NCBI GenBank assembly: GCA_031274425.1 | Contig: JAISQE010000187.1 | Coordinates: 1 to 38,725, forward strand | Direction of reading: 5' to 3' | DNA length: 38,725 nt | Origin: Synergistaceae bacterium | GTDB lineage: Bacteria; Synergistota; Synergistia; Synergistales; Aminobacteriaceae | In this document: in pieces, positions 1,574 to 20,316 of the stretch | How the letters are laid out: each line of letters opens with the position of its first letter | How positions within the stretch are numbered: the first letter of the stretch is position 1 | Made by a program: the position numbers and the translations under genes | Notes under the pieces: model-generated | Databases searched by the model: none | Told to the model about the DNA's origin: nothing | What the model saw: only the letters and a program-made list of their open reading frames with translations

Positions 1574-3064
1574 TCAAATCCTCTTTTCCAAGTTCTCCAG
1601 ATCTTTCGGGAGCGCCGCTCCCACGGAGATCTTTCGCTCCAAAAGCTTTCGGGGCAGGCGAGACAGTTCCTCGATGGGCAGCTCGCTCAAGGCCTCCCAT
1701 GCCTTCGCCTCGGATTGAGCGAGGGTCCTTCTCGCGAATCGCCGTCCCCGCCCTTGATCGACGAACGACGCTTCGAAAACGTCGCCGAACCTCAGACAGC
1801 GTTTCTCCAGGTCGGAAAGCCCGCCCTCCGGGGCAAAAGACCTGGGATCGAAGCGCGAATTAAAGCCCAAATTAAAGCCTAAATCAAAACTCAGTTCCCT
1901 CGCCTTGGCGTAGGCGGCATAGAGCTGTTCGGCGAGGACTCGGTGGGAGTCGAAGGTTTTGCCGCGGCCTATCCCTTTGTTCATCGGCCGCGACAGCGAC
2001 GCCGTCACGTCCAAAGGCGGAAAGACGCCCTTGGCGTGCAGCCTCCGGTCCAAAACAAGCTGTCCGTCGGTGATCTGTCCGGTCAGGTCGGCCACCGGGT
2101 GAGCGATGTCGTCGTTCGGCATGGTGACTACCGGAAGCTGCGTCACGCTGCCCGGCCGTCCCGCGACGCAGCCGGAGCGTTCGTAAATCTGGGCCAGGTC
2201 GGAATACATGCCGACGGGATACCCGCCCCGCCCCGCGATATCCCCCCGCGCCGTCCCGATTTCCCGCAGGGCCTCGCAGTAGTGGAGCATGTCCGCCATG
2301 ACGACGAGCACGTCGTAGCCTCTAACGAAGGCGAAATACTCGGCGATGGTCAGGGCGACACGCGGCGTCAGAAGACGCTCCGCGAGCGGATCCCCGGCCG
2401 TGTTCAGAACGAAGACCCCTCCGTCCGCCGCGCCGTCGCGCTCGAAGGCCTCCATGAGGAGATCCGCCTCGCGTCCGGTGACGCCTATGGCGGCGAACAC
2501 CACGAGGAACTCGTCGTCTTTGCCGGGAATCGTCGCCCCGGCGGCTATCCGCGCCGCGATCTCGCACGCGGGCAGGCCCGGCCCCGCGAACACGGGCAAT
2601 TTCTGTCCGCGCGCCAACGTGTTCATCAAGTCCAGCGCGGATATCCCCGTTTCGATGACGCCGTTGGGGGTCGTTCTGTCGGCGGGGTTGATCGGCGAGC
2701 CGTCCACCGGGAGAAATTCTTTGACGCCGTAGAGCTTTTTCCCGCCGACAGGCTGACCGCGACCGTTCAACACTCGGCCTCGCAGGGCCTCCCCCACTCC
2801 GACCTTGGCGACGTCGTGCTCCATCCACACCGTCCGCCCCGCTTCGAGCCCCACCGTGTCGTCGAAAATTTGAACGACGCAAAGGTCGTCCTTGAATTGA
2901 ATCACCCGCCCCAACCGCGCGTCCGCGCCGGACTCCACCGTCACCAGCTCGCCGTACCCGACGCCCGTCATGTTCTCGACGAATAGAAGGGGGCCCGCAA
3001 TATCTCGGATTCCGCGCGAGCCCTTTCTATAGAGCTGTTTATGGTCTTGTCGAGGAAACGTCAT
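1574..3064 (-). CDS. ntpB: V/A-type ATPase subunit B (non-catalytic)
   Basis: Regulatory, nucleotide-binding subunit of the A3B3 head of a V/A-type rotary ATPase, on the cytoplasmic face. The 496-residue protein shows the family blocks in order: DIAGPLLFVE (residues 21-30), NGRGQPVGG, GSPINPADR, ETGISALDLMNTLARGQKLP, VVFAAIG, a TPRVALT/AEYFAF block and PDDDI-like PNDDIAHPV. The arginine finger expected to reach into the A site is present (Arg359 in SLSRP). As in the family there is no P-loop lysine. An in-frame 12-base triplication near residues 391-403 adds a period-four LGFN segment. ATG at 3064 overlaps the subunit A stop (ATGA), implying translational coupling; an upstream in-frame extension to 3127 lies inside subunit A and lacks the family signature. 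Confidence 0.95.
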   Translation of the reverse strand: MTFPRQDHKQLYRKGSRGIRDIAGPLLFVENMTGVGYGELVTVESGADARLGRVIQFKDDLCVVQIFDDTVGLEAGRTVWMEHDVAKVGVGEALRGRVLNGRGQPVGGKKLYGVKEFLPVDGSPINPADRTTPNGVIETGISALDLMNTLARGQKLPVFAGPGLPACEIAARIAAGATIPGKDDEFLVVFAAIGVTGREADLLMEAFERDGAADGGVFVLNTAGDPLAERLLTPRVALTIAEYFAFVRGYDVLVVMADMLHYCEALREIGTARGDIAGRGGYPVGMYSDLAQIYERSGCVAGRPGSVTQLPVVTMPNDDIAHPVADLTGQITDGQLVLDRRLHAKGVFPPLDVTASLSRPMNKGIGRGKTFDSHRVLAEQLYAAYAKARELSFDLGFNLGFNSRFDPRSFAPEGGLSDLEKRCLRFGDVFEASFVDQGRGRRFARRTLAQSEAKAWEALSELPIEELSRLPRKLLERKISVGAALPKDLENLEKRI

Positions 3065-4836
3065 TGTATCGCCTCCCGGTCGGTCGCCGGTCGGGCGGCA
3101 AGTTCGGCGGAAAAGCGTTCCAGCCACTCCCGCCCCTTATCCGTAAAGTCCGGCAGGTCGCGCAGAGCGATCAGCTCCGGCCTCATGGACACGCCGACGA
3201 CGTCGTCATAACGTAGCCCTTCCCTCAACGCCCTCCGCACCCTGTCGTCCAGCGCTTCGAGGAGCCGCAGCAACGCCGCGGCCCGAGCCGGCGGCGAACA
3301 GGCGTCCCGGGCGTCCTGCCGCAAATAGACGATTTCAAGGGTCTCGGCGTGGAAAAGGAGCCATTTATCCTCATCGGACAGCACCGTTTCGGAAAACGCC
3401 TTTCGGCCCGCAAAGCGTGCCGCGTCGGCAAGTTCCTCCCCTCGGGACAAAACGTCTCTCAGGTATTCTTTCAACTCCGGCCAATCCTGCCCCGCCTCCT
3501 GGGTCAGAGCCTCGGAAAGCGCCTCTTCGTAAAGCGAATGGCTTCGACGTCGATCAATGGCGGGGAAGCGGCGAGCCTGGGCGAGAGCCTTGTCCAACAC
3601 CCAAAAAGCGCCGGACAACCTTAGGCCGGTCTGGGTCGCCGGCTCGGAAAGATCTCCTCCCTCCGGCGAAAAAGTGCCGATCGCGCTCACCGAACCGCGG
3701 CGCGAGACGGCGCCCAGGGTCTCGACCTGCCCCGCCCGCTGGCGGCAGCCGGACAACCGACTCTCAAGGCAAGCCGGGTACCCTCCCGCGCCGGGGGTTT
3801 CCCCGAGGCGGCTCCCGACCTCCCTCAAGGCCTCCGCCCACCGGGACACGGAATCGACCAGGACCACCGCGTCGTACCCCATATCCCGATAGTACTCGGC
3901 CAAGGTCATCCCGAGATAGACGCTGGTCTCCCGCGACGCCGCCGGCATGTTGGACGTGTTCGCCACGAGAGCCGCGCGCTCCGCCAAGGGCAATCCCTCG
4001 GACACGTTTTCGGAAAATTCCTCCAGAAGCTCCGCTATTTCGCCGCCCCGGCCTCCGCATCCCACATAGATCACCACGTCGGCGCGACAGCATTTTGCCA
4101 GAGACCGCTGCAGGGCGGTCTTCCCCGCGCCCAACCCTCCGGGCATGGCGGCCGCGCCGCCCAAAGCCATGGGAAAGAGCGTGTCCAGCGCCCTTTGCCC
4201 AGTGAACAGCGGGCGATCCAAGGGCAGGCGCTCCTTGGCGGGCCTGGGGACGCGAATCGGCCACCGCTGCGTCAGGGTCAACTCGGTCCCGTTCTCCAAA
4301 CGACACACGCAATCCCGCAAGGCGTAATCCCCCTCCGGCGCGATCCACGCCACCGCCTCCGGCGACGAAAAAGCCGGGGGGACCAAAATACGATGGAGAA
4401 AGCGGCTTCCCTCCGCCACCGTTCCCAGAACGTCTCCTCGCGCCACCGCGTCTCCCTCCGACGCCGACGGCTCGAAACGCCATAATTTCTCGTTTCGCGA
4501 GGCGGCCACGCCCTGCCTCGGGCGAAGAGGCCGCCCCACGCCGTCCAGAACCTCTCCCAAAAAACCGGGCCCCAGGTCCACGCTCAGGAGTTCCCCGGTG
4601 AAAAGCACCTCTTCCCCCGCGGACAGCCCCGTGGCGTCCCCGTAGATTTGGATGTCGGCCTCCCGCCCCCGGATTCGAACGACCTCCCCCAGGAGCCCCG
4701 CTGGGGACTTCGTCACCGGGGACTTTGCCCCAGGGATTCGAACCGCCTCGAACATGCGGACGGGAAAATCCGTCTTCGCGACGACGACTGGCCCCGAGAC
4801 CCCCGTTATCGAGCCCTTCGACAAATCCTCTTTCAT
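3061..4836 (-). CDS. ntpA: V/A-type ATPase subunit A, catalytic glutamate replaced
   Basis: The subunit that normally hydrolyses or makes ATP in a V/A-type rotary ATPase. At 591 residues it has full family length. Visible blocks: N-terminal barrel (GVSGPVVVA), the P-loop GGLGAGKT (residues 233-240, Lys239), YVGCGGRGGE (257-266), NTSNMPAASRETS, DSVSRWAEALRE (328-339) and SPEGGDLSEPAT. The family motif GCGERGNE reads GCGGRGGE here, so the general-base glutamate (Glu261 of Enterococcus NtpA) is Gly262, codon GGC at 4051-4053; the adjacent arginine is kept. The GYP region (GGYPACLESRLSGCRQRAG) is also divergent. The ATG at 4836 has GGAG upstream and lies 13 bases after the E stop. A weak 15-base repeat (AKSP/TKSP) sits at residues 37-45. 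Assembly as a head subunit is likely; normal catalysis is doubtful. Confidence 0.93.
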   Translation of the reverse strand: MKEDLSKGSITGVSGPVVVAKTDFPVRMFEAVRIPGAKSPVTKSPAGLLGEVVRIRGREADIQIYGDATGLSAGEEVLFTGELLSVDLGPGFLGEVLDGVGRPLRPRQGVAASRNEKLWRFEPSASEGDAVARGDVLGTVAEGSRFLHRILVPPAFSSPEAVAWIAPEGDYALRDCVCRLENGTELTLTQRWPIRVPRPAKERLPLDRPLFTGQRALDTLFPMALGGAAAMPGGLGAGKTALQRSLAKCCRADVVIYVGCGGRGGEIAELLEEFSENVSEGLPLAERAALVANTSNMPAASRETSVYLGMTLAEYYRDMGYDAVVLVDSVSRWAEALREVGSRLGETPGAGGYPACLESRLSGCRQRAGQVETLGAVSRRGSVSAIGTFSPEGGDLSEPATQTGLRLSGAFWVLDKALAQARRFPAIDRRRSHSLYEEALSEALTQEAGQDWPELKEYLRDVLSRGEELADAARFAGRKAFSETVLSDEDKWLLFHAETLEIVYLRQDARDACSPPARAAALLRLLEALDDRVRRALREGLRYDDVVGVSMRPELIALRDLPDFTDKGREWLERFSAELAARPATDREAIQ

Positions 4837-4849
4837 TTTCGCGTCTCCA

Positions 4850-5488
4850 TCACTCAAAAAATCCGGTAAAAACGTCTCCGAGCCCGGCGGCAAAAGAGGG
4901 ACACAAACGCCTCCATCGCGTTCGAAACGTGTTGTCGACGAGGCGCGCGCCTTCCCTCCATATACTTTCGCTTTCTTTCGCCTCGACCAGGACAAGGCCT
5001 CCCCAGGCGTTTTGCAACTCTTCGCGAACCTCCAGCACGTTCCCGCTGGGCTTCAAAAAGGCGGAATCCCCCTTCTCCACCCACGCGATCGAGGGAAAGG
5101 GGAAGACATCCCGCGCCTCCGCGACCAGGGTCTCCATCGCGTCCCCGTATCCAGGCGAACGGCGAAAGGCCTCCAGACGCGCGCGCACCCTTTTTTCCAG
5201 GTGTTCGAAAACATCGTCTTGCAGCTCGACCTTGTAGGCTTTTTTTTGAAGCTCCACACGGCGGCGATTGGCCTTCAGCCCCTCGTCCAGAAGTTTTTCG
5301 CAGGAACGGCGCAGATCGTGAACGATGCGCTCCACCTGAAGGCGGCGCGCCGTGATCATGTCCGCGAGGTCTTCGTCCACGGAGCGTTTCAGAGCGAGAT
5401 AGCGCTCTCGGTGCTGCGCCAACAGGGCATTCTTGAACCCCGCCAGATCATCGGCCCCGGAGGTCTCCGAGAGTTGGGCGCTGGGCAA
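4850..5488 (-). CDS. ntpE: V/A-type ATPase subunit E (peripheral stalk)
   Basis: Peripheral stalk subunit linking the A3B3 head to the membrane I subunit. The 212-residue protein has a long charged helical N-terminal half (about residues 15-105, coiled-coil like) and a globular C-terminal half with the family signature around GGLVLVEAKES and ARLVDNTFRTRW (VEGGVVL and DNTFEARL in typical members). It starts at TTG (5488-5486); GAGGA lies about 11 bases upstream inside the end of the K gene, and there is no in-frame ATG before the coiled coil. The gene follows K with a one-base gap and precedes A by 13 bases, the usual I-K-E-A-B order seen in bacterial V-ATPase operons. Confidence 0.87.
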   Translation of the reverse strand: MPSAQLSETSGADDLAGFKNALLAQHRERYLALKRSVDEDLADMITARRLQVERIVHDLRRSCEKLLDEGLKANRRRVELQKKAYKVELQDDVFEHLEKRVRARLEAFRRSPGYGDAMETLVAEARDVFPFPSIAWVEKGDSAFLKPSGNVLEVREELQNAWGGLVLVEAKESESIWREGARLVDNTFRTRWRRLCPSFAAGLGDVFTGFFE

Positions 5489-5489
5489 T

Positions 5490-5711
5490 TCAAGCCATCC
5501 TCATGATGATCATGATGGCGACGACGAAGCCTAAAATCACCATCGTCTCGGGGATGGCCTCCAGAATGATGATGGTTCCGGAGGTCTCCGGTTTTTCCGC
5601 GACAGTTCCCGCCCCGGCGCTGCCGATGCGCGCCTGGGCGTAGGCGGTGGCCAGCGCGGGAATGGCGACGGCCAAAGCCGCGGCCAGTGCCATGATCGCT
5701 TTCTCAGTCAT
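5490..5711 (-). CDS. ntpK: V/A-type ATPase subunit K (membrane ring proteolipid)
   Basis: Ring-forming proteolipid (c-type) subunit that carries the transported ion through the membrane. With 73 residues it is a single helical hairpin: helix 1 about residues 4-26, a polar loop (GTVAEKPET) and helix 2 about residues 42-72. The essential carboxylate is the Glu of IPET in helix 2. Helix 1 has no clear Na+-type Pro-x3-Gln pattern, so H+ versus Na+ cannot be decided by eye. ATG at 5711 overlaps the last 8 bases of the I gene. An upstream extension to 5789 reads through the I gene and is not needed. Confidence 0.92.
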   Translation of the reverse strand: MTEKAIMALAAALAVAIPALATAYAQARIGSAGAGTVAEKPETSGTIIILEAIPETMVILGFVVAIMIIMRMA

Positions 5712-7668
5712 TGTACAGCCTCCTTCTTTTGGCAAACGGTTTGTACTCGAGGGTTCCATCCTCGTAAAATTTTCCCATGAACTCCACATAGTGAAGCCGC
5801 GCCGCGTGCAGGGCGGACCCTCCGATGGCGAGAACGAAGTTCAAAAGATGAATGGCGAACGCCATGAAAAGCCCCAGTATGGAGACCCCGAAGATGTCCA
5901 CGAACGTGCTGGCGACCATCGCCAAAATGGCGGACGACAGGCCGATGGCGGCGATGCGGACGTAGCTGATGATATTGCCGATGGTCCCCAGGGACTCGAT
6001 GATTCCCCCGATCCCTCCCCCGCGCACCAAAAAAATCACGCCGAAGACGAGAAGGGTGACGGGCACGGAGAAAAGCGCGCTCGACAACCGCGAGCGCAGC
6101 ACCACCAGCGCCGCCACCAGGGCGAGGATCACCAGCAGGCTTCCGGCTCGCTCCATCCAGAGATGGCGGCGTCGATTTCGAATCCCTTGGATCATGCCGA
6201 TAAGAAGCCCCAAACAAACGTGAGCGCCGCCCAAAGCGACGCTGAACGCCATGACCGTCAGCACCGCCTCGGACCTCTCCACCCAAAGCGGCTCCATGTG
6301 CAACAAGCGATGGCCGGCGTCTCCGAAAAATTCGCCGTACAGGGCTCCCCACACGATGCTCCAGAACGCGACGAAAATGAGAATGACCCCCACGTCCCGC
6401 AGCACCTCCGAACGTTTTTGTTTCAGGTGCCGGCCCAGCCATAAAACAAGCACCCCGTAGCCGATGTCGCCTACCATACAGCCCGCGAAAAAAGGGAAAA
6501 AGACGCCGATCAACGGGGACGGGTCGTAGGCGTTGTAGTGCGGCACGCGCAGGAGCTTCAAAAACAACTCGAAGGGTTTGAAGATAGATCTGTTTCGCAA
6601 CGCGGTCGGGACCGCGCCGTCCTTGGCGGGATCGGGGGGCCTGGAGCGCAGGATGACGGCGTCGCCGAAGTCCTCTTCCAGTATCGCCCGAGTGCGCGGG
6701 AGGTCGTCCTCCGGAATCCAGCCCTCCAAGCTGAAAAACTCCGCGTTTTCAGTGGCGGACGCCTCCATCAGAAGCTGTTCCAGGCGTTCGTTCAAAAGAA
6801 CGTAAACGGCGGCCAGATTCGCCCCCCACTGAGCGCCCAGTTTCTGCAGCTCCTGCCTGTTCTCCCTCATTTGCGCCGGTATGGTCTGCGACATTTGCTT
6901 GATCCGCGACGCCGCCTCCAAAAGAGAGTCGTTATCGGACTCCATCCCGTCGCTCGATTCGCCGTCGAGGGGCGCGGCGGCGGGAATGGACTCGAAGCGC
7001 TCCGGAAGTTTCCAAAGCGAGCCCTCCATGTTGGCGACGATCCGGTCGATATTGGACCGCACCTCGTGAGACGCGCTGGTCACAAGGAACGAGGAGCCGT
7101 CCTTGAGTTCGAAAGTGTGATAGCGAAACCAGGGTTTTTCATGGCCGCTGGGCAAGAGATCCAATTCTCCGTTCACCTTGGAAACAAGTATATGCTGCTC
7201 TTGACGCGACAGCCTCCAAATGGCCACCTCGCCTCGAGAAAAACGTTCCTGTTCCAAAAACGCGCGGGCGTGAGTCAAGATGAGATTGGTTTTGCGCAGC
7301 TTCATGAAGACGCTTTGCAGGCTTTCCCGGTTTTCTCGGATTCGGGAAAGCCGTGACTGGATACGCTCGAGGCTCCTGTCGATCTCGGTCATCATGGGCT
7401 CCAGATCGCCGAAAAGATTGTAGCGGACGTTTTCGATAAACGCGTCGGTCAATTTCCTCCACTCGTCCCATCTGAGGGCCTCGATCAGGCCCAGCACCCT
7501 TCCCCTCTGGTCCCGCAGCTTTTCCAGCAGACGGCCCCGCGCGTCGGCGGTCCCGTCGTCGGGCACGTTGTCGAGATGAAAAACCCCCAGCTCGTAGAGC
7601 CTCGCCACAATCGACGGCTTCTTATCCCCCACTCCCCACAAAACGACCCTGGCCATGCGTTTTATCAC
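5704..7668 (-). CDS. ntpI: V/A-type ATPase subunit I (membrane a-subunit)
   Basis: Large membrane subunit forming the ion half-channels and anchoring the stalks. The 654-residue protein has an N-terminal cytoplasmic half (about residues 1-330) with coiled coils, then about seven or eight transmembrane segments. Family blocks are intact: YNAYDPSPLIGVFFPFF then GDIGYG, the essential arginine in NIISYVRIAAIGL, and HYVEFMGKFYEDG near the end. The channel side of this complex therefore looks functional even though the A subunit is not standard. Start is GTG at 7668 with GGAGG 9 bases upstream, overlapping the previous stop (GTGA); an ATG four codons later is the alternative. Confidence 0.94.
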   Translation of the reverse strand: MIKRMARVVLWGVGDKKPSIVARLYELGVFHLDNVPDDGTADARGRLLEKLRDQRGRVLGLIEALRWDEWRKLTDAFIENVRYNLFGDLEPMMTEIDRSLERIQSRLSRIRENRESLQSVFMKLRKTNLILTHARAFLEQERFSRGEVAIWRLSRQEQHILVSKVNGELDLLPSGHEKPWFRYHTFELKDGSSFLVTSASHEVRSNIDRIVANMEGSLWKLPERFESIPAAAPLDGESSDGMESDNDSLLEAASRIKQMSQTIPAQMRENRQELQKLGAQWGANLAAVYVLLNERLEQLLMEASATENAEFFSLEGWIPEDDLPRTRAILEEDFGDAVILRSRPPDPAKDGAVPTALRNRSIFKPFELFLKLLRVPHYNAYDPSPLIGVFFPFFAGCMVGDIGYGVLVLWLGRHLKQKRSEVLRDVGVILIFVAFWSIVWGALYGEFFGDAGHRLLHMEPLWVERSEAVLTVMAFSVALGGAHVCLGLLIGMIQGIRNRRRHLWMERAGSLLVILALVAALVVLRSRLSSALFSVPVTLLVFGVIFLVRGGGIGGIIESLGTIGNIISYVRIAAIGLSSAILAMVASTFVDIFGVSILGLFMAFAIHLLNFVLAIGGSALHAARLHYVEFMGKFYEDGTLEYKPFAKRRRLYND

Positions 7669-8144
7669 GAGATCCCGCCTCCGTTCCGCGGAGTGTCGGC
7701 GAGAACCGGGACGTTTTTCGAATCCTCGGGCGGTCCCGTAATCTCTTCATTAATCTCTTCATCAATCTCTTCCTTGAGCTCTTCAAACGAGGGAAACAGG
7801 TGATCGAAAGCGTCTTTCGCCAAAACATCGAGAAATTTTTCGTCATGCAACCGCTGGTAAAGATTTTTTTTCCAGGCGGCGAGCTCCGTTTCCAACCGCT
7901 CTCGATCTCGGGCGAGGCGGTCCTCGACGTTTTTCGCCTCCATGCGGACGATTTCGATCGTTCGGTCGGACATGGCGTTCAAACGCCACAATGTTTCTTC
8001 TTTGAAACGCTCGAACTCGACTTTTTTACTCTCCATATCGTCGGCCAACTGGCTGCGCAGGGCCTCCAATTTCTCCCGAGTCTCGACGAGGGGGTCGGAG
8101 GAATCGGAGGGATTGCCTGGCGGGGCAAGAAATTTATCCGACAT
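7665..8144 (-). CDS. Coiled-coil protein, probable V-ATPase G/H-type stalk subunit
   Basis: A 159-residue, highly charged protein with a long predicted helix from about residue 20 to 130. It lies immediately before subunit I, where the small coiled-coil partner of subunit E (G/H-type) is usually encoded. Assignment rests on position and coiled-coil character, not on a diagnostic motif. The C-terminal part contains a degenerate 12-base repeat giving EELK-EEID-EEIN-EEIT. I chose ATG at 8144 because AAGGA lies 10 bases upstream; the ATG at 8153 is too close to that site. It overlaps the CBS gene stop by 11 bases and the I start by 4. Confidence 0.72.
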   Translation of the reverse strand: MSDKFLAPPGNPSDSSDPLVETREKLEALRSQLADDMESKKVEFERFKEETLWRLNAMSDRTIEIVRMEAKNVEDRLARDRERLETELAAWKKNLYQRLHDEKFLDVLAKDAFDHLFPSFEELKEEIDEEINEEITGPPEDSKNVPVLADTPRNGGGIS

Positions 8145-8598
8145 TGCGGTCATATCCTTCGAGCATGAAATTCCAGAGCATTTTACGATCGATGATGCCG
8201 ACCAACACCCCGTCCTCCACGACGGGGAGGCGGCGGAGGTGTTTTCGTATCATCAAATCGGCTATGGACATCAGGCTCACGTAAGGTTCGACGGCCACGG
8301 GAGACTTGGTCATATAGTCCTTGACCGGAAGCATTCCCAGTTTCTCCAGCTGCCTCACGAACTCTTCCTCCTCCCCGCTCAAAAACGAGCTTTGAGTGAG
8401 GACTTCCAGATAGGACGGGGTCGCGGCGCGCAAAATATCGGTCTCGGACAAAAAACCGACGAGGCGCCAATTCATGTCGACGACGGGCAAGCCGGCCACG
8501 TTATGGTAATAAAAAATATCGATGGCCTCGCTGATGGTGCTGTGCTCCATGACAACCGTCAGGTCGCGATCCATGAGTTCACCGACTGTAGTGATCAT
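8134..8598 (-). CDS. CBS-domain pair protein
   Basis: A 154-residue stand-alone tandem CBS module: repeat 1 about residues 7-60 (GELMDRDLTVV to SETDILRAA) and repeat 2 about residues 95-150 (DYMTKSPVAVEP to GIIDRKMLWNFM). Such pairs bind adenine nucleotides or related ligands and regulate partner proteins; no catalytic domain is attached. ATG at 8598 overlaps the stop of the glycosyltransferase gene (ATGA), and its 3' end overlaps the ATPase stalk gene. Location at the head of the ATPase set suggests an adenylate-sensing role for that complex, but this is inference. Confidence 0.88.
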   Translation of the reverse strand: MITTVGELMDRDLTVVMEHSTISEAIDIFYYHNVAGLPVVDMNWRLVGFLSETDILRAATPSYLEVLTQSSFLSGEEEEFVRQLEKLGMLPVKDYMTKSPVAVEPYVSLMSIADLMIRKHLRRLPVVEDGVLVGIIDRKMLWNFMLEGYDRNVG

Positions 8599-10903: not shown

Positions 10904-12190
10904 TTACAGCAAATGCAACAGATGTCCCATCTTGCTTTCTTTGGCGGTCATGTATCCCTTGTTGAACTCGTTGGGTTCGATCACCAGCGGCACCCGATCC
11001 ACAATCCGAATGCCGTGCCCCTCGAGTCCGATGATCTTTTGGGGGTTGTTGGTCAAAAGCCGAATTTGTTTCAGGCCGAGATCCGTCAAAATCTGGGCCC
11101 CCGTTCCGTAGTCCCGCAGGTCCGGCGCGTAGCCGAGGGCGATGTTGGCGTCGACCGTATCCATTCCCTCTTCCTGCAGTTTGTAGGCCCTCAATTTGTT
11201 GACGATCCCGATGCCGCGGCCCTCCTGGCGCATGTAAAGCAACACCCCCACGCCCTCGCTCTCGATCATTTTCAGAGCGGCGTGCAGTTGAGGTCCGCAG
11301 TCGCAGCGCAAAGAGCCGAAGACGTCCCCCGTCAGACACTCGCTGTGGACGCGGACCAACACGCCGGCGTCCGGCGAGACGTTGGCGATATCCCCCTTGA
11401 CCAAGGCGATATGGATGTGACTGTCGTTTTCCTCCAGGGTGTTGCGATAGGCGTAGGCTCGAAACTGCCCGAACTCCGTCGGCAAACTGACTTCGACGAT
11501 CTTTTCCACCAATTTTTCGCGCATGCTGCGCCACGCGATAAGGTCTTTTACGGTGATCAGCTTCAGTCCGTGGCGGGCGGCAAAAGGGACGAGGTCCGGA
11601 AGACGCGCCATCATGCCGTCGTCGTTCATCACTTCGCAAATCACTCCGGCCAGCGGCAACCCCGCCAACCGCACCAGGTCTATCGCGGCTTCCGTATGGC
11701 CCGCGCGTTTCAGAACGCCGCCCGGTTTAGCCGCCAGAGGGAACAGGTGCCCCGGACGGTAAAAGTCCTCCGCGCGCGCTTCGGAGTCCGCCAGAAGCCG
11801 TGCCGTGATCGCGCGCTCCTCGGCGGAAATACCCGTCGTGATGCCCACTTTCGCGTCGACCGTCACTAGAAACGCCGTCCCGTGCTTATCGGTGCCCTTC
11901 TTCGTCATCGGCTCCAACTGGAGGCGCTTGGCGATCTCCTCGGAAATCGGGGCGCAAATCAACCCCCGCGCGTAACGGGCCATGAAATTGATCTGATCCG
12001 TCGTGGCGTGCGCCGCCGCCATCACGAGATCGCCCTCGTTTTCGCGAGACTCGTCGTCCACGACCAGAACCATGCGCCCCTGGCGGATATCCTCGATTGC
12101 GTCCTCGATCGAGGCGAATTGCGCGACGCCCCGTTTTACGGCGTCGAGCGTTTCCGCCGACTCCACACTTTTATCGGTAACCAAGCTCAC
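10904..12190 (-). CDS. ribBA: Bifunctional 3,4-dihydroxy-2-butanone 4-phosphate synthase / GTP cyclohydrolase II
   Basis: Supplies both precursors of riboflavin: the N-terminal domain (about 25-225) converts ribulose 5-phosphate to dihydroxybutanone phosphate, and the C-terminal domain (about 230-425) opens GTP. Visible motifs are [15 protein letters not shown] (acidic metal site), GHTEAAIDL, and the cyclohydrolase zinc cysteines in [19 protein letters not shown] followed by RQEGRGIG. The 428-residue length is normal for the fusion. Start is GTG at 12190 with GAGGAG 6 bases upstream, overlapping the ribE stop by 20 bases. Confidence 0.97.
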
Positions 12191-12842
12191 ACATCTCCTC
12201 GAGAGTCAATTTGCCGGAAGACCTCGGGCTTTTAGGTCCGGAACCCGCGGAGCCCAGCAATCGCTCCACATATTTTCCGACGATGTCGGTTTCCACATTG
12301 ACGACCTCTCCCGGCTTGAGCCGTCCCAGCGTGCAACCCTCCAGGGTCGTCGGGATCAGGCCCACGGAAAAACTTTCGGAACCCGCGTCGATCACGGTCA
12401 AACTCACCCCGTCGACGGCGACGGAACCCTTCGTCACGATATAGCGCATCATATCCTTCGAGCCCCTAGAGGCTCGAAAACGCGCCTCCTTTGTCCGGGC
12501 CGATCCCCAAAGTTTTTCCAGCGTCGCCGTTCCGTCCACGTGCCCCAGCACCAGATGACCGTCCAGCCGACCGTCCAGCTTCATCGCCCGCTCCAAATTG
12601 ACGAGGCTCCCCCGGGTCAGCGAGGGAAAACGCGTCCGCGCAACCGTCTCCGGCATCATTTCCACGTCGAAGACGCCGCCTCGCAGGGCCACGACGGAAA
12701 GACACGCCCCGCTGACCGCCACGGACTGACCCAAAATCAGCTCGGGAGCTATCCTCGAACACTCGACGGAAAGCCGAAAAACCTCCCCCGTCTCTCGCAC
12801 CTCCCGCACCGTTCCAATCGCCTCTACAAGACCGGTGAACAT
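12171..12842 (-). CDS. ribE: Riboflavin synthase, alpha subunit
   Basis: Dismutates two 6,7-dimethyl-8-ribityllumazine molecules to riboflavin. The 223-residue protein shows the two-fold repeat of the family: [10 protein letters not shown] at the N terminus, SGACLSVV (repeat 1), then [19 protein letters not shown] (repeat 2) and GLIPTTL. The tail ([16 protein letters not shown]) is a low-complexity extension. ATG at 12842 has GGAGGGAG about 8 bases upstream and overlaps the ribD stop by 19 bases; longer in-frame reading toward 13001 lies inside ribD and is not supported. Confidence 0.96.
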
Positions 12843-13966
12843 CGAAAAACTCCCTCCACGAGCAAATCGTTTCCCGCGCGTCGCGTGCGCATCTCCCTCA
12901 GGCGAACGACATCCTTCATAAAGTCGAAGCGAAGCTCGTCCCCCAAACCGCGCCCCTCGCCCATGAGGGAGCCGGACATGAAAAAGGCCAGAGAATCGCA
13001 CCGTTCCGTTTCGATGAAAGCGGAAAGAACCCTGGGGCCGCCCTCGACCATCACCGACTGTATGTCGCGCCGGGCGAGCTCTTTAAGCGCGGCGTCCACG
13101 TCGACCCTGGGCCGGGCGGGCAAGACGCAAACTTCCGCCCCCGCGCGCTCCAGAGCCCGTTTTTTCTCCAAGTCGCCGCATCCGGTCAGGATGAGACATC
13201 CTTCTTTTCTAAAAATACCAGCTTTTTTAAAAACACCGGCATCTTTTAAAACTCCGGCGTCCGGAGGCAACGAAAGATTCGTATCCAATATTATGCGCAA
13301 AGGCGATTTACCGCAAGTATGGCGCACCGTCAACTGGGGGTCGTCCGCGAGGATCGTGCCCACCCCCACGAGAACGGCGTCGTGTTCGGCGCGCATCAGG
13401 TGCGCCCACCCGCGCGCCGTCTCGCCGGTAATCCACTTGCTCTCGCCGGAGGGAAGCGCCATTCTGCCGTCCAAGCCCGTCGCGGCCTTCAATGTGACCC
13501 ACGGACGATTCAGGGTTTGACGCCTGAAAAACCCCCGATTCAACCATTTGCATTCTTTTTCCAGGCAGGGCAAAGAGACCTCGACGCCGGCGGCCTTCAG
13601 TATTTCGAGTCCCCTGCCCCTCACCTTGGGGTTGGGGTCTACCGATCCCACGACGACGCGGGCGACGCCCTCTTCCACGAGGCGCGGAGCGCAGGGCGGA
13701 GTTTTACCGAAATGGGAACAGGGTTCGAGGGTGACGTAGGCCGTAGCTCCCCTGACGTCCTCGCCCTTTTTCGCCGCGTCGTCCAGAGCCGCCACTTCGG
13801 CGTGGGGGCCCCCGCAACGAGCGTGGTATCCCTCACCGACGACGCGTCCGTCTTTCACCAACACGCAACCCACCTTGGGGTTGGGAGGGGCTCCGTCCAT
13901 CCCCCGCCAAGCCAAGGAAAGCGCGCGGTTCATATAGTATTCGTCCGCCTTGTGCCGCGTGACCAT
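12824..13966 (-). CDS. ribD: Bifunctional pyrimidine deaminase / reductase RibD
   Basis: Carries out the deamination and side-chain reduction after GTP ring opening in riboflavin synthesis. The N-terminal deaminase has the zinc site HAEVAAL and PCSHFGKTPPC; the C-terminal reductase (from about residue 150) has GLDGRMA, GESKWITG, VGVGTILADDPQLTVR and VEGGPRVL. The 380 residues include a triplicated 18-base segment at 13208-13261 (DAGVLK / DAGVFK / KAGIFR, residues 236-253) that is not usual in the family and probably forms a surface loop. ATG at 13966 follows the HD-domain gene by 38 bases with only a weak ribosome binding site. Confidence 0.96.
   Translation of the reverse strand: MVTRHKADEYYMNRALSLAWRGMDGAPPNPKVGCVLVKDGRVVGEGYHARCGGPHAEVAALDDAAKKGEDVRGATAYVTLEPCSHFGKTPPCAPRLVEEGVARVVVGSVDPNPKVRGRGLEILKAAGVEVSLPCLEKECKWLNRGFFRRQTLNRPWVTLKAATGLDGRMALPSGESKWITGETARGWAHLMRAEHDAVLVGVGTILADDPQLTVRHTCGKSPLRIILDTNLSLPPDAGVLKDAGVFKKAGIFRKEGCLILTGCGDLEKKRALERAGAEVCVLPARPRVDVDAALKELARRDIQSVMVEGGPRVLSAFIETERCDSLAFFMSGSLMGEGRGLGDELRFDFMKDVVRLREMRTRRAGNDLLVEGVFRCSPVL
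13208..13261 (-). repeat. Three 18-base degenerate tandem units inside ribD
   Basis: Reading on the minus strand the units start at 13261, 13243 and 13225 and encode DAGVLK, DAGVFK and KAGIFR, followed by a fourth trace (KEG). The reading frame is kept. The units are AT-rich compared with the surrounding GC-rich gene. Confidence 0.85.
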
Positions 13967-14004
13967 AAGTTTTTCGCTCTTCGGGGGTTCGAGAGGGAGA
14001 GGCC

Positions 14005-14574
14005 CTACCCCAGTCCGATTTCCTTTTCGATCGGGCGCATGGCCGCGATGGTGGTCTCGATGACCTCGTCCAGCGATATCCCCATCATCTCGGCGCCTTT
14101 TTGGATGACGCTCCTGTCCACGCCTTTGGCAAAGGCTTTGTCTTTCCATTTTTTCTTCACGGACTTGAGTTCCAGGTCCGAGAGGGACTTGGACGGGCGC
14201 ACCAGCCCCGCCGTGATGATCAGCCCCGTGAGCTCGTCGATGGTGAAGAGCGTCTTTTCCATGTCGTTCTTCGGCTCCACGTCCGAACATATACCCCATC
14301 CGTGAGATTGCACGGCGTGGATAATCTCTTCCTCTATACCGGCCTCCCGCAGCAGTTCGGGAGCGAGATTGCAGTGACGCGTCGGTTCGTTCATCGTTTT
14401 TTCCCAATCGATGTCGTGCAAAATTCCGACCACGCCCCACAATTCCTCGTCGCCGCCCATCTTGCGCGCGAAATGGCGCATGGTCCCCTCAACGGCGCGC
14501 GCGTGCTTCATGTGGCTTTCGTCGCTGTTGTGCTTCCTGAGTAGTGCAAACGCCTCTTCTCTTGTCGGTGTCAA
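14005..14574 (-). CDS. HD-domain hydrolase
   Basis: A 189-residue HD-superfamily protein of the COG2316 type (predicted metal-dependent phosphohydrolase). The metal ligands are visible: His24 (MKHARAVEG), the HD pair at residues 53-54 (ILHDIDWE), a later His (TRHCN) and HSHGW-like QSHGWG followed by a possible Asp in IDELTG. The substrate is unknown. Start is TTG at 14574 with GGAGGG 8 bases upstream; the first ATG (Met22) would cut away the conserved helix before the first histidine. It lies 26 bases after the redoxin gene and 38 before ribD. Confidence 0.85.
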   Translation of the reverse strand: MTPTREEAFALLRKHNSDESHMKHARAVEGTMRHFARKMGGDEELWGVVGILHDIDWEKTMNEPTRHCNLAPELLREAGIEEEIIHAVQSHGWGICSDVEPKNDMEKTLFTIDELTGLIITAGLVRPSKSLSDLELKSVKKKWKDKAFAKGVDRSVIQKGAEMMGISLDEVIETTIAAMRPIEKEIGLG

Positions 14575-18167: not shown

Positions 18168-20285
18168 TTAAGGCAAAGGATAGTGGTCCCATATAGGGAT
18201 GCCCAGGAAGAACCCCACCTTGAACTCCTCGCTGCCGTACATCGCGGCCAGCTTGATGTTCACGATGTTGTTCGGAATGGTGAAGGCCAGGCCGAGTTCC
18301 CAGGGCGTAGCCACTTTCTCGTAATCCTTGTCCATCGCGTAGCCGTAGCTTCCGAACACCTCCGCGGCAACGATGCCCCAGACGCTGCGTTTCAGAATGC
18401 GACGGAACGCGACGTTGATCCACGCCATGCGCTCCGCCTCGATGGGGCGGTCCGCGATGGAATAAAGCTCCTCCGCCGCTCCCAGATACGCGGCGTGCCC
18501 TTCCCTGTCCAGATTTCCCTCCGCGTACCCGAAGCGCAGATAGGTGCGCCACATCTGCCCCACTTGAATGGGTTTGAAGTAGGTTATTCGATAGAGGATC
18601 TCATCCATGTCGGCCCACCAGGCGTTCAGGCGCCACGCTTCTCCTTTCGTGGGGTCGGCCGGGATGTCCAGGGTGTCGTACGCCGCGAAGAAAGTCGGCC
18701 CCACGGAGCTGTTGCCGCCCTCGCCGTCGATGTACTCGTAGGCCAGGCCAATTCCCATCTGTACGGCCCCCGCGTGGAAAAGACGCTGCCCGCCGACGGA
18801 ATAGCGATCCCAATTTCGATGACCGCCCGAGGTGTCCATCTCCCATTTCTGAGCGGCCAGATTGATCTCCCAGGAACTCAAGGGCTCGGGGGCCGTCAGG
18901 TAACTCAGGTCGAAACCCCATTGTTCTCCCAGACGAACGACTCCCCGCAGGGCGTCCAGGTCGTGGAAGACCCCTCGGGCCGTGCCCTTCAGGTAAAGCC
19001 AGCGAGACGTGTCCAAGTTGGTGGTATAACCCGAAAGGCCCACTTCCAAGTCAGAGCGTTTACGGATGTCGAGCACGAGCACGACGTCGTCTCCGCTGCG
19101 CTGAAGGCTGTAGTCCACCGTGGCGATATCCGGCGCGGCCATCAAACGATCCACGGATTCCTGCACGTCGTCGGCGTCTAGGGGCTTCCCCACCCAGCGC
19201 AAAAAGCGCTTGCGCAACTGCCCGTCGAGAGGGGCCGGCAACCCGTGGACGCGCACATCGCGGATGATCGCGGGACGCGAGGAGGGCGGCGTTTTCGTGA
19301 CGACGTTCGGAACGCTGTTCGAAAGGGCTCTAATCTCGTCGATGCTCTCGAGCGCGGCTTCCCTGCCTCGCTGGATGATCTTGCCCGTGGAGTCGTCGTC
19401 CAGAAAGGAGAACTCCTGCACCCTCGGCGCGACGACAAGATCGGCGTGCGGAAACTCCAACTCGGTCCTCTGCCGCATCACGATCGTCAAAGACTGGTCG
19501 ATGACGTCGATAAAGGTATCGATAGGCCGATCTTTGGAGGGAATATCCGACACGTCCACCCCGATGACCGGCAATCCCGGAAAAAGCTCCTTTGCCGTAT
19601 CGATCGGAAGATTGGAGGCCAAACCGCCGTCCACCAGAAGGCGTCCGTCGATCTCCCAAGGCTCGAAAAGCGCCGGAATCGACATCGACGCCCGCATCGC
19701 GGAGGGCAGGCTGCCCGAGCGCAGAACAACCTTTTCTCCCGTTCGAATGTCCGTCGCGACGGCCGCGTAGGGAATGGGAAGCTCGTTGAAGTCCGTGACC
19801 TCCACGTGTTTCATCAATTGGGTGTAGTACTGAAACAACTTGTCTCCCGTCAAAATCCCCAAGGGGCCGCCGCGTTTGCCGGTCTTTTTGTACGTGAGGG
19901 CGGAAATCGTGTTCATCTTAGCCTGCCGGTCGTCCCCGGTGAAAACAAACATAGGGCCCGTATTTTCCGACAGGAGAGCCGGCAGGTCCAGCTCGGAGAT
20001 GACCTCCCGCAGCGCCTTCGCGTTGTAGCCGCTGGCGTTCAAAGCCCCGATGAGAGAACCGATGCTGGTCCCCACAATGCCGACGACGGGAATCCCCTGT
20101 TCCTCGAGCACCTCGATGACCCCGATATGGGCGAATCCTCGCGTGCCGCCGCCGGAGAGCGCCAGAACGACCCCCGCGTCCGCGGGGAAAGGGGCCGAAA
20201 AGAAAATCGAAAAAAAGGCCGAAGGGAAGGACAACGTGAAAGCCAGAACCCAAGTCCTCCAAAACGCGCATGAAAATTTTTTCAC
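18168..20285 (-). CDS. Patatin-POTRA-beta-barrel protein (type Vd autotransporter, PlpD-like)
   Basis: A 705-residue exported lipase-type protein. Domains in order: signal peptide (about residues 1-36, ending FPADA), patatin phospholipase (about 38-330) with oxyanion loop SGGGTRG, nucleophile Ser74 in GTSIGS and catalytic Asp219 in VDGGL, then a single POTRA-like segment (about 345-420) and a 16-strand-type beta barrel (about 425-705) rich in alternating aromatic strands. This is the PlpD/FplA architecture, in which the barrel anchors the patatin domain at the outer membrane. The nucleophile motif has Ile where most patatins have Ala. Start is GTG at 20285 with GGAGGGG 6 bases upstream; this start places the lysine pair at the N terminus. 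Confidence 0.9.
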   Translation of the reverse strand: MKKFSCAFWRTWVLAFTLSFPSAFFSIFFSAPFPADAGVVLALSGGGTRGFAHIGVIEVLEEQGIPVVGIVGTSIGSLIGALNASGYNAKALREVISELDLPALLSENTGPMFVFTGDDRQAKMNTISALTYKKTGKRGGPLGILTGDKLFQYYTQLMKHVEVTDFNELPIPYAAVATDIRTGEKVVLRSGSLPSAMRASMSIPALFEPWEIDGRLLVDGGLASNLPIDTAKELFPGLPVIGVDVSDIPSKDRPIDTFIDVIDQSLTIVMRQRTELEFPHADLVVAPRVQEFSFLDDDSTGKIIQRGREAALESIDEIRALSNSVPNVVTKTPPSSRPAIIRDVRVHGLPAPLDGQLRKRFLRWVGKPLDADDVQESVDRLMAAPDIATVDYSLQRSGDDVVLVLDIRKRSDLEVGLSGYTTNLDTSRWLYLKGTARGVFHDLDALRGVVRLGEQWGFDLSYLTAPEPLSSWEINLAAQKWEMDTSGGHRNWDRYSVGGQRLFHAGAVQMGIGLAYEYIDGEGGNSSVGPTFFAAYDTLDIPADPTKGEAWRLNAWWADMDEILYRITYFKPIQVGQMWRTYLRFGYAEGNLDREGHAAYLGAAEELYSIADRPIEAERMAWINVAFRRILKRSVWGIVAAEVFGSYGYAMDKDYEKVATPWELGLAFTIPNNIVNIKLAAMYGSEEFKVGFFLGIPIWDHYPLP

Positions 20286-20316
20286 TTGTACCCCTCCTGC
20301 CCAAATCCAAAACAAC

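Follow-up and report, generated by a model that had tools for sequence, protein, structure and literature searches.

The window analysed in this work is a stretch of 38,725 nucleotides from the draft genome of a Synergistaceae bacterium (207 contigs, 93% complete). On its minus strand it carries an operon of the V/A-type ATPase, in which homologues of both head subunits, A and B, lie next to genes for the peripheral stalk and the membrane sector. In gene order, the features are as follows:

8134–8598, minus strand: CBS-domain protein (Pfam CBS, 4e-26), an upstream neighbour conserved in synteny
7665–8153, minus strand: putative H/G-type peripheral stalk subunit, charged and coiled-coil-like, occupying the slot between CBS and I that it has in canonical operons
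5704–7668, minus strand: subunit I, the a-type stator (Pfam V_ATPase_I, 9e-28), with Arg571 and Arg624 intact
5490–5711, minus strand: subunit K, the c-ring hairpin, 73 aa (Pfam ATP-synt_C, 1e-15, on a longer 99-aa ORF), with Glu55 and Gln26 intact
4850–5488, minus strand: subunit E of the peripheral stalk, 212 aa, 28% identical to canonical E (6e-24)
4837–4849: junction between E and A, 13 bp, in place of C and F (operon comparison)
3061–4836, minus strand: subunit A homologue, 591 aa, ATG at 4836 (NCBIfam NF003220, V-type subunit A, 2e-169), with P-loop and Walker B kept and the catalytic Glu changed to Gly
4120–4122, minus strand: P-loop Lys239 of A, intact, invariant in alignments
4051–4053, minus strand: Gly262 of A, codon GGC, replacing the catalytic Glu
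4042–4044, minus strand: Gly265 of A, replacing the conserved Asn of the GCGERGNE motif
3853–3855, minus strand: Walker-B Asp328 of A, intact, invariant in alignments
1574–3064, minus strand: subunit B homologue, 496 aa (NF003235, 4e-155), with the arginine finger Arg359 (1988–1990) intact
1573: end of B, where D, the next gene in all full operons, is absent and an unrelated 285-aa ORF (715–1572) stands instead

The H gene was assigned by its position and weak similarity (37% to its homologue in genome G023); it gave no family match. In the membrane sector, the alignment shows that K retains the ion-binding Glu55 plus the helix-1 Gln, and that I retains both key arginines, which correspond by motif to Arg563 and Arg622 of T. 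thermophilus. The Na+ ligands of Ilyobacter are Gln32, Glu65 and Ser/Thr66 (PMC2359735), and a ring of the Na+ type is suggested for the K subunit of the window.

Several neighbouring genes were also recorded. The minus-strand ORF that directly follows B (715–1572) has a hydrophobic stretch near its N-terminus and no Pfam or NCBIfam match; the same place is taken by an ankyrin-repeat-like protein in G001 and by another ORF in G002. Riboflavin genes (RibBA-type and RibD-type; 10907–14440, minus strand) lie upstream of WecG, and in G001 ribB/ribA-like and ribH-like genes likewise precede it. A 715-aa protein (18171–20315, minus strand) carries a patatin-like phospholipase domain at its N-terminus (Pfam, 3e-33), and its long remainder towards the C-terminus has no match at the threshold used.

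The catalytic motif and the central-stalk genes

The first-pass annotation had read the family motif GCGERGNE of subunit A as GCGGRGGE, with glycine for both the catalytic glutamate and the Asn three residues further on, and had described the P-loop lysine, the arginine next to the lost glutamate and the arginine finger of B as intact. Examination of the ORF and the alignments bears this out: GCGGRGGE sits gap-free on GCGERGNE in a HMMER alignment to solved A subunits, residues 262 and 265 are glycines, and Lys239, Arg263 of A and Arg359 of B are all in place. An AF2 model of the A monomer, with no hexamer predicted, reached a mean pLDDT of 86.6 and had T. thermophilus A as its best PDB match (TM 0.89), so the fold is kept. 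Subunit A of the window is 51% identical to the canonical copy of genome G008.

The annotation had proposed that either the complex does not hydrolyse ATP in the usual way or another acid substitutes for the missing one. The former agrees with our analysis, since loss of normal hydrolysis is the likely consequence of the substitution, and we consider it likely that the complex no longer splits ATP at the usual rate. The latter, an unorthodox hydrolysis with another acid in the place of Glu262, could draw on the conservation of the P-loop, Arg263, the Walker-B Asp and the arginine finger of B, but it is very unlikely. The gap-free alignment places no other Glu or Asp at the position, which also disposes of a misaligned or shifted acid at residue 262; Glu266 is the ordinary glutamate of the motif, and no new conserved Asp or Glu was seen near the active site when the A alignment was judged by eye. 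Moreover, the residue is glycine in two genera and alanine in a third.

The loss of the glutamate was thus read correctly, but what the annotation missed is that the whole central stalk (C, D and F) is lost as well. The direct orthologue of the window system is the Synergistota V/A-type operon (H-I-K-E-C-F-A-B-D), with which it shares gene order and the WecG and CBS flanks. Full orthologous operons occur in other families of the order and also within the family itself, in genera g2, g3 and g7. They read WecG-CBS-H-I-K-E-C-F-A-B-D and are usually followed by rlmH, ybaB and recR homologues; the short contig of g6 shows E-C-F-A-B-D. In the window operon C, F and D are all absent, and A follows E after 13 bp, compared with about 1300 bp, occupied by C and F, in full operons. 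Because the entire central stalk is missing from the operon, rotary catalysis is probably excluded on grounds other than the glutamate.

We searched 24 genomes for D (PF01813) and C (PF01992), joining contig-end fragments in G075 and G078 before counting. Genomes whose third operon lacks C, F and D (hereafter rotorless) carry two D and two C genes, whereas those with a complete third operon carry three of each; the number of A genes is three in both groups, save similar contig-end gaps. The A:D:C ratio is therefore 3:2:2 in rotorless genomes and 3:3:3 or 2:2:2 where the operons are complete; the incomplete G001 shows one C. In the source genome these family searches found no third D and no spare C, and its two D genes both belong to the other V-ATPase operons, which rules out relocation of C or D elsewhere in the genome. 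No F was found in the window operon at the level of the operon check.

Distribution of the two losses among relatives

The same arrangement, E followed by A without C and F, and B not followed by D, was observed in G001, G002, G071, G072, G074, G075, G077 and G078. In total, the rotorless third operon occurs in ten species of six genera, with all ORFs intact. In each case it is the same three genes that are missing, and never I, K, E, A or B. A contig edge as the cause of the missing D was ruled out, since further genes follow B on the contigs; in G072, G074 and G075 the very next one is rlmH. All nine rotorless copies compared retain the P-loop Lys and Thr, Arg263, the Walker-B Asp and, in B, the arginine finger.

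Catalytic glutamate is a different matter. Following the checks proposed with the first-pass annotation, we found both a clade that shares the change and canonical copies in the same genome: contigs C111 and C96 each carry another A subunit in which GCGERGNE is intact, which makes the window copy the third. The orthologous A of both other members of the window genus has glycine (GCGGRGGE and GCGGRGSE), two species of g17 have NCGGRGNE, and the third genus (g10, genome G023) has alanine (CGARGSD).

The annotation had also argued that sequencing error does not explain the glycine, and the relatives agree. Although the genome is a draft in 207 contigs, the probability of a sequencing or assembly artefact is practically negligible: other species show, on separate contigs, both the substitution and the gene losses, and the genus members use different glycine codons (GGC, GGG and GGA). 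A chance origin of Gly262 is ruled out by the same comparison.

Arranged by content, the operons form a series. G073 has the full subunit set and a normal motif. G071 (GCGERGNE), G074 (SCGERGNE), G075 (GCGERGNE) and G072 (LCGERGTE) lack C, F and D and keep the glutamate, and the window genus and g17 have neither rotor nor catalytic Glu. In G023 the operon is split between contigs L217 (1–4258; WecG-CBS-H-I) and L239 (1–4140; K-E-A-B-rlmH); its A gene comprises 493 codons from the first start codon, with the bulge domain and the rotor sleeve gone, yet the ORFs of A, B, E, K and I are all unbroken, and K is 86% identical to that of the window. Finally, a search with subunit I showed that the operon is absent from most other genomes of the family (61 of 83). 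As it is wholly absent there, it must be dispensable in many species of the family.

Two first readings were dropped. G023 first appeared to have only subunit I left, until a search for K found K-E-A-B on the other contig. Likewise, the A gene of G002 seemed to be disrupted by a TAG, but it is an open ORF, because the TAG stands upstream of the gene start. On contig L217 of G023, WecG-CBS-H-I is followed by an apparent GGDEF-type gene on the other strand, as judged from frame translation.

How often the rotor was lost depends on the tree consulted. In the tree of A, the nine rotorless copies tested form one clade (100/99), and the complete G073 is their sister. G073 falls beside rotorless G074 and G075 in three other trees, built from I alone, from I+K+E+CBS and from the C111-type A as a species marker. 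Constraining the rotorless copies to one clade gave an AU p of 0.026 for the I tree, a rejection, and of 0.08 for the marker, close to one. Two explanations fit: repeated loss of the same three genes, or distortion of one of the trees by the fast A branches. On the I+K+E+CBS tree, loss of the glutamate amounts to three changes. The glutamate losses lie within a larger group from which the rotor was already gone or was lost several times. The third operon of G073 (L053, 9600–13600) is complete, although G074 and G075, its nearest relatives by subunit I, have no rotor. Both of these carry rlmH behind B, but no rlmH was found behind D in G073.

Rotor-contact loops, rates and selection

Subunits A and B could in principle still turn if the window A, B, E, I and K borrowed D, F and C from another V-ATPase. 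D and C of other operons do exist in the cell. For the parts of A that would meet a rotor, retention is given here as the share kept of residues conserved in 24 rotor-bearing copies, with a baseline of 0.70 outside marked motifs:

3754–3819, minus strand: sleeve loop of A, VGSRLGETPGAGGYPACLESRL, rotor-facing by F1 homology; degenerate compared with canonical RLEEMPGEEGYPAYL, retention 0.47 versus 0.70 elsewhere
3361–3420, minus strand: DELSEED-like rotor-contact loop of A, corresponding to E. hirae 476–486; degenerate, retention 0.37

In the ranking of A, the DELSEED-like loop, which touches D (PMC3879392), falls in the lowest about 1% of windows and the sleeve in the lowest 5%. The sleeve of B decays too (0.60 versus 0.84). 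Additionally, the alignment shows deletions in the A sleeve of G074 and G075, the sleeve is gone in G023, and the catalytic glutamate is missing in g1, g17 and g10. As the rotor-contact loops decay, a hybrid motor with paralogous D, F and C is unlikely. In the A subunit of G002 (L014/L022), about 30 extra residues, APTSAFAPIFASTFDSIFDPILAPTLASNRS, are inserted into the DELSEED-like loop.

The head has also changed its pace. The A/I distance ratio is 2.09 (1.51–3.43) for rotorless pairs and 0.59 (0.47–0.69) for rotor-bearing pairs; the species pairs are non-independent, and the ranges nonetheless do not overlap. Relative to WecG, A rises from 0.62 in rotor-bearing to 2.38 in rotorless copies and B from 0.53 to 2.05, which means that both evolve about four-fold faster than in rotor-bearing relatives. 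The ratios for I (1.04 and 1.16) and E (2.15 and 2.14) are essentially unchanged.

Such acceleration is what decaying genes would show, and it brings in the main rival reading: a third V-ATPase, redundant because two canonical ones coexist with it, lost its rotor and is now a relic in slow decay, as in sister genera without the operon. The absence of the whole operon from 61 of the 83 family genomes points the same way. We nevertheless regard this reading as rather improbable. The ORFs are all intact in ten species and six genera, I and E show no acceleration, and it is always the same three genes that are gone while I, K, E, A and B survive. It is worth stressing that dN/dS, obtained by a simple Nei-Gojobori count among the three species of the window genus (g1) that share the glycine, is 0.23–0.25 for A, 0.19–0.24 for B, 0.13–0.16 for I and 0.03–0.09 for K. 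These ratios show purifying selection on all tested subunits; by this measure, A is under purifying selection even after the loss of the glutamate (about 0.25), and the values for I, A and B (0.13–0.25) following that change speak against mere decay.

In our assessment, the window system is probably a non-rotary, non-hydrolysing derivative of a V-type ATPase that is kept for its membrane sector, and the complex likely does not couple ATP to ion transport. Held through E and H to subunit I, the A/B head would sit as an immobile cap that may bind nucleotide, and the selected role would lie in the I-K sector. Without the d-type plug (C) and the shaft, ions could pass, driven by pmf or smf; the sector might, for example, serve as a leak or relief path or be structural. 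As a single mechanism, this combination of a static cap with a selected I-K function is the likeliest that we can name, and we put it forward only tentatively.

Proton flow through isolated Vo of T. thermophilus is blocked with the help of the d (C-type) subunit, whose contact with the soluble part of a keeps this Vo closed below about 120 mV (PMC7367684). The window operon has no d-type subunit, and therefore such a block would be absent unless A and B supply one. A more specific version is conceivable, if somewhat doubtful on present evidence: a non-rotary membrane device in which the c-ring/I ion path, freed of shaft and plug, lies under an A/B ring able to bind nucleotide but not to split it, and acts as an ion conduit, perhaps a nucleotide-sensitive one.

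Comparison with known systems and meaning

Our searches of open papers turned up no V-ATPase described as lacking D while retaining A, B, E, I and K. Compared with its direct orthologue, which has C, F and D, the window operon lacks all three, has lost the glutamate and has an accelerated head. The ProAD survey of rotary ATPases treats A, B, D, I and K as the essential core and sets incomplete sets aside (PMC11738941); the window operon lacks the D of that core.

Partial likenesses exist. The rudimentary A-type synthase of Nanoarchaeum equitans (NeqA-NeqB) resembles the window system in keeping A, B and membrane subunits after the loss of several others. Its five remaining subunits include D. 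It is the sole rotary ATPase of its cell, whereas the window complex coexists with two complete V-ATPases, and no loss of its catalytic glutamate has been reported, in contrast to the window A. That five subunits remain is documented (PMC5498576), and whether they form a working synthase has been doubted (PMC3149612, PMC6349945).

The F1-like ATPases of Mycoplasma (types 2 and 3) are additional rotary ATPases that evolve fast, lack some subunits and accompany a normal copy (PMC3369863, PMC11864180). In being an extra, fast-evolving and subunit-poor copy next to a normal enzyme, the window system is like them. However, they keep the shaft (gamma) and catalysis without the normal membrane sector and peripheral stalk, while the window system is the reverse: E, I and K are kept and the shaft is lost. 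Isolated Vo of the Thermus V/A-ATPase is similar in that a membrane ring, I/a and EG stalks stand without a working motor (PMC7367684), but it keeps d (C) and lacks A3B3, whereas the window operon lacks C and keeps A and B.

In the textbook view, rotary ATPases are all-or-nothing machines with D in their essential core. Ten species, however, keep both halves without the axle, and several of these rotorless species then lose the catalytic residue too. If the complex is functional, it would be a natural test of what a membrane sector and an A/B head do without rotation, and also of how a cell tolerates or exploits a passive ion path through the c-ring. Should it be decaying, the operons would give a rare view, in graded steps (full, rotorless, rotorless and without Glu, with a stripped head, absent), of the order in which a motor is disassembled. 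As far as the sequences allow us to judge, a molecular motor seems to have been kept here as something other than a motor.
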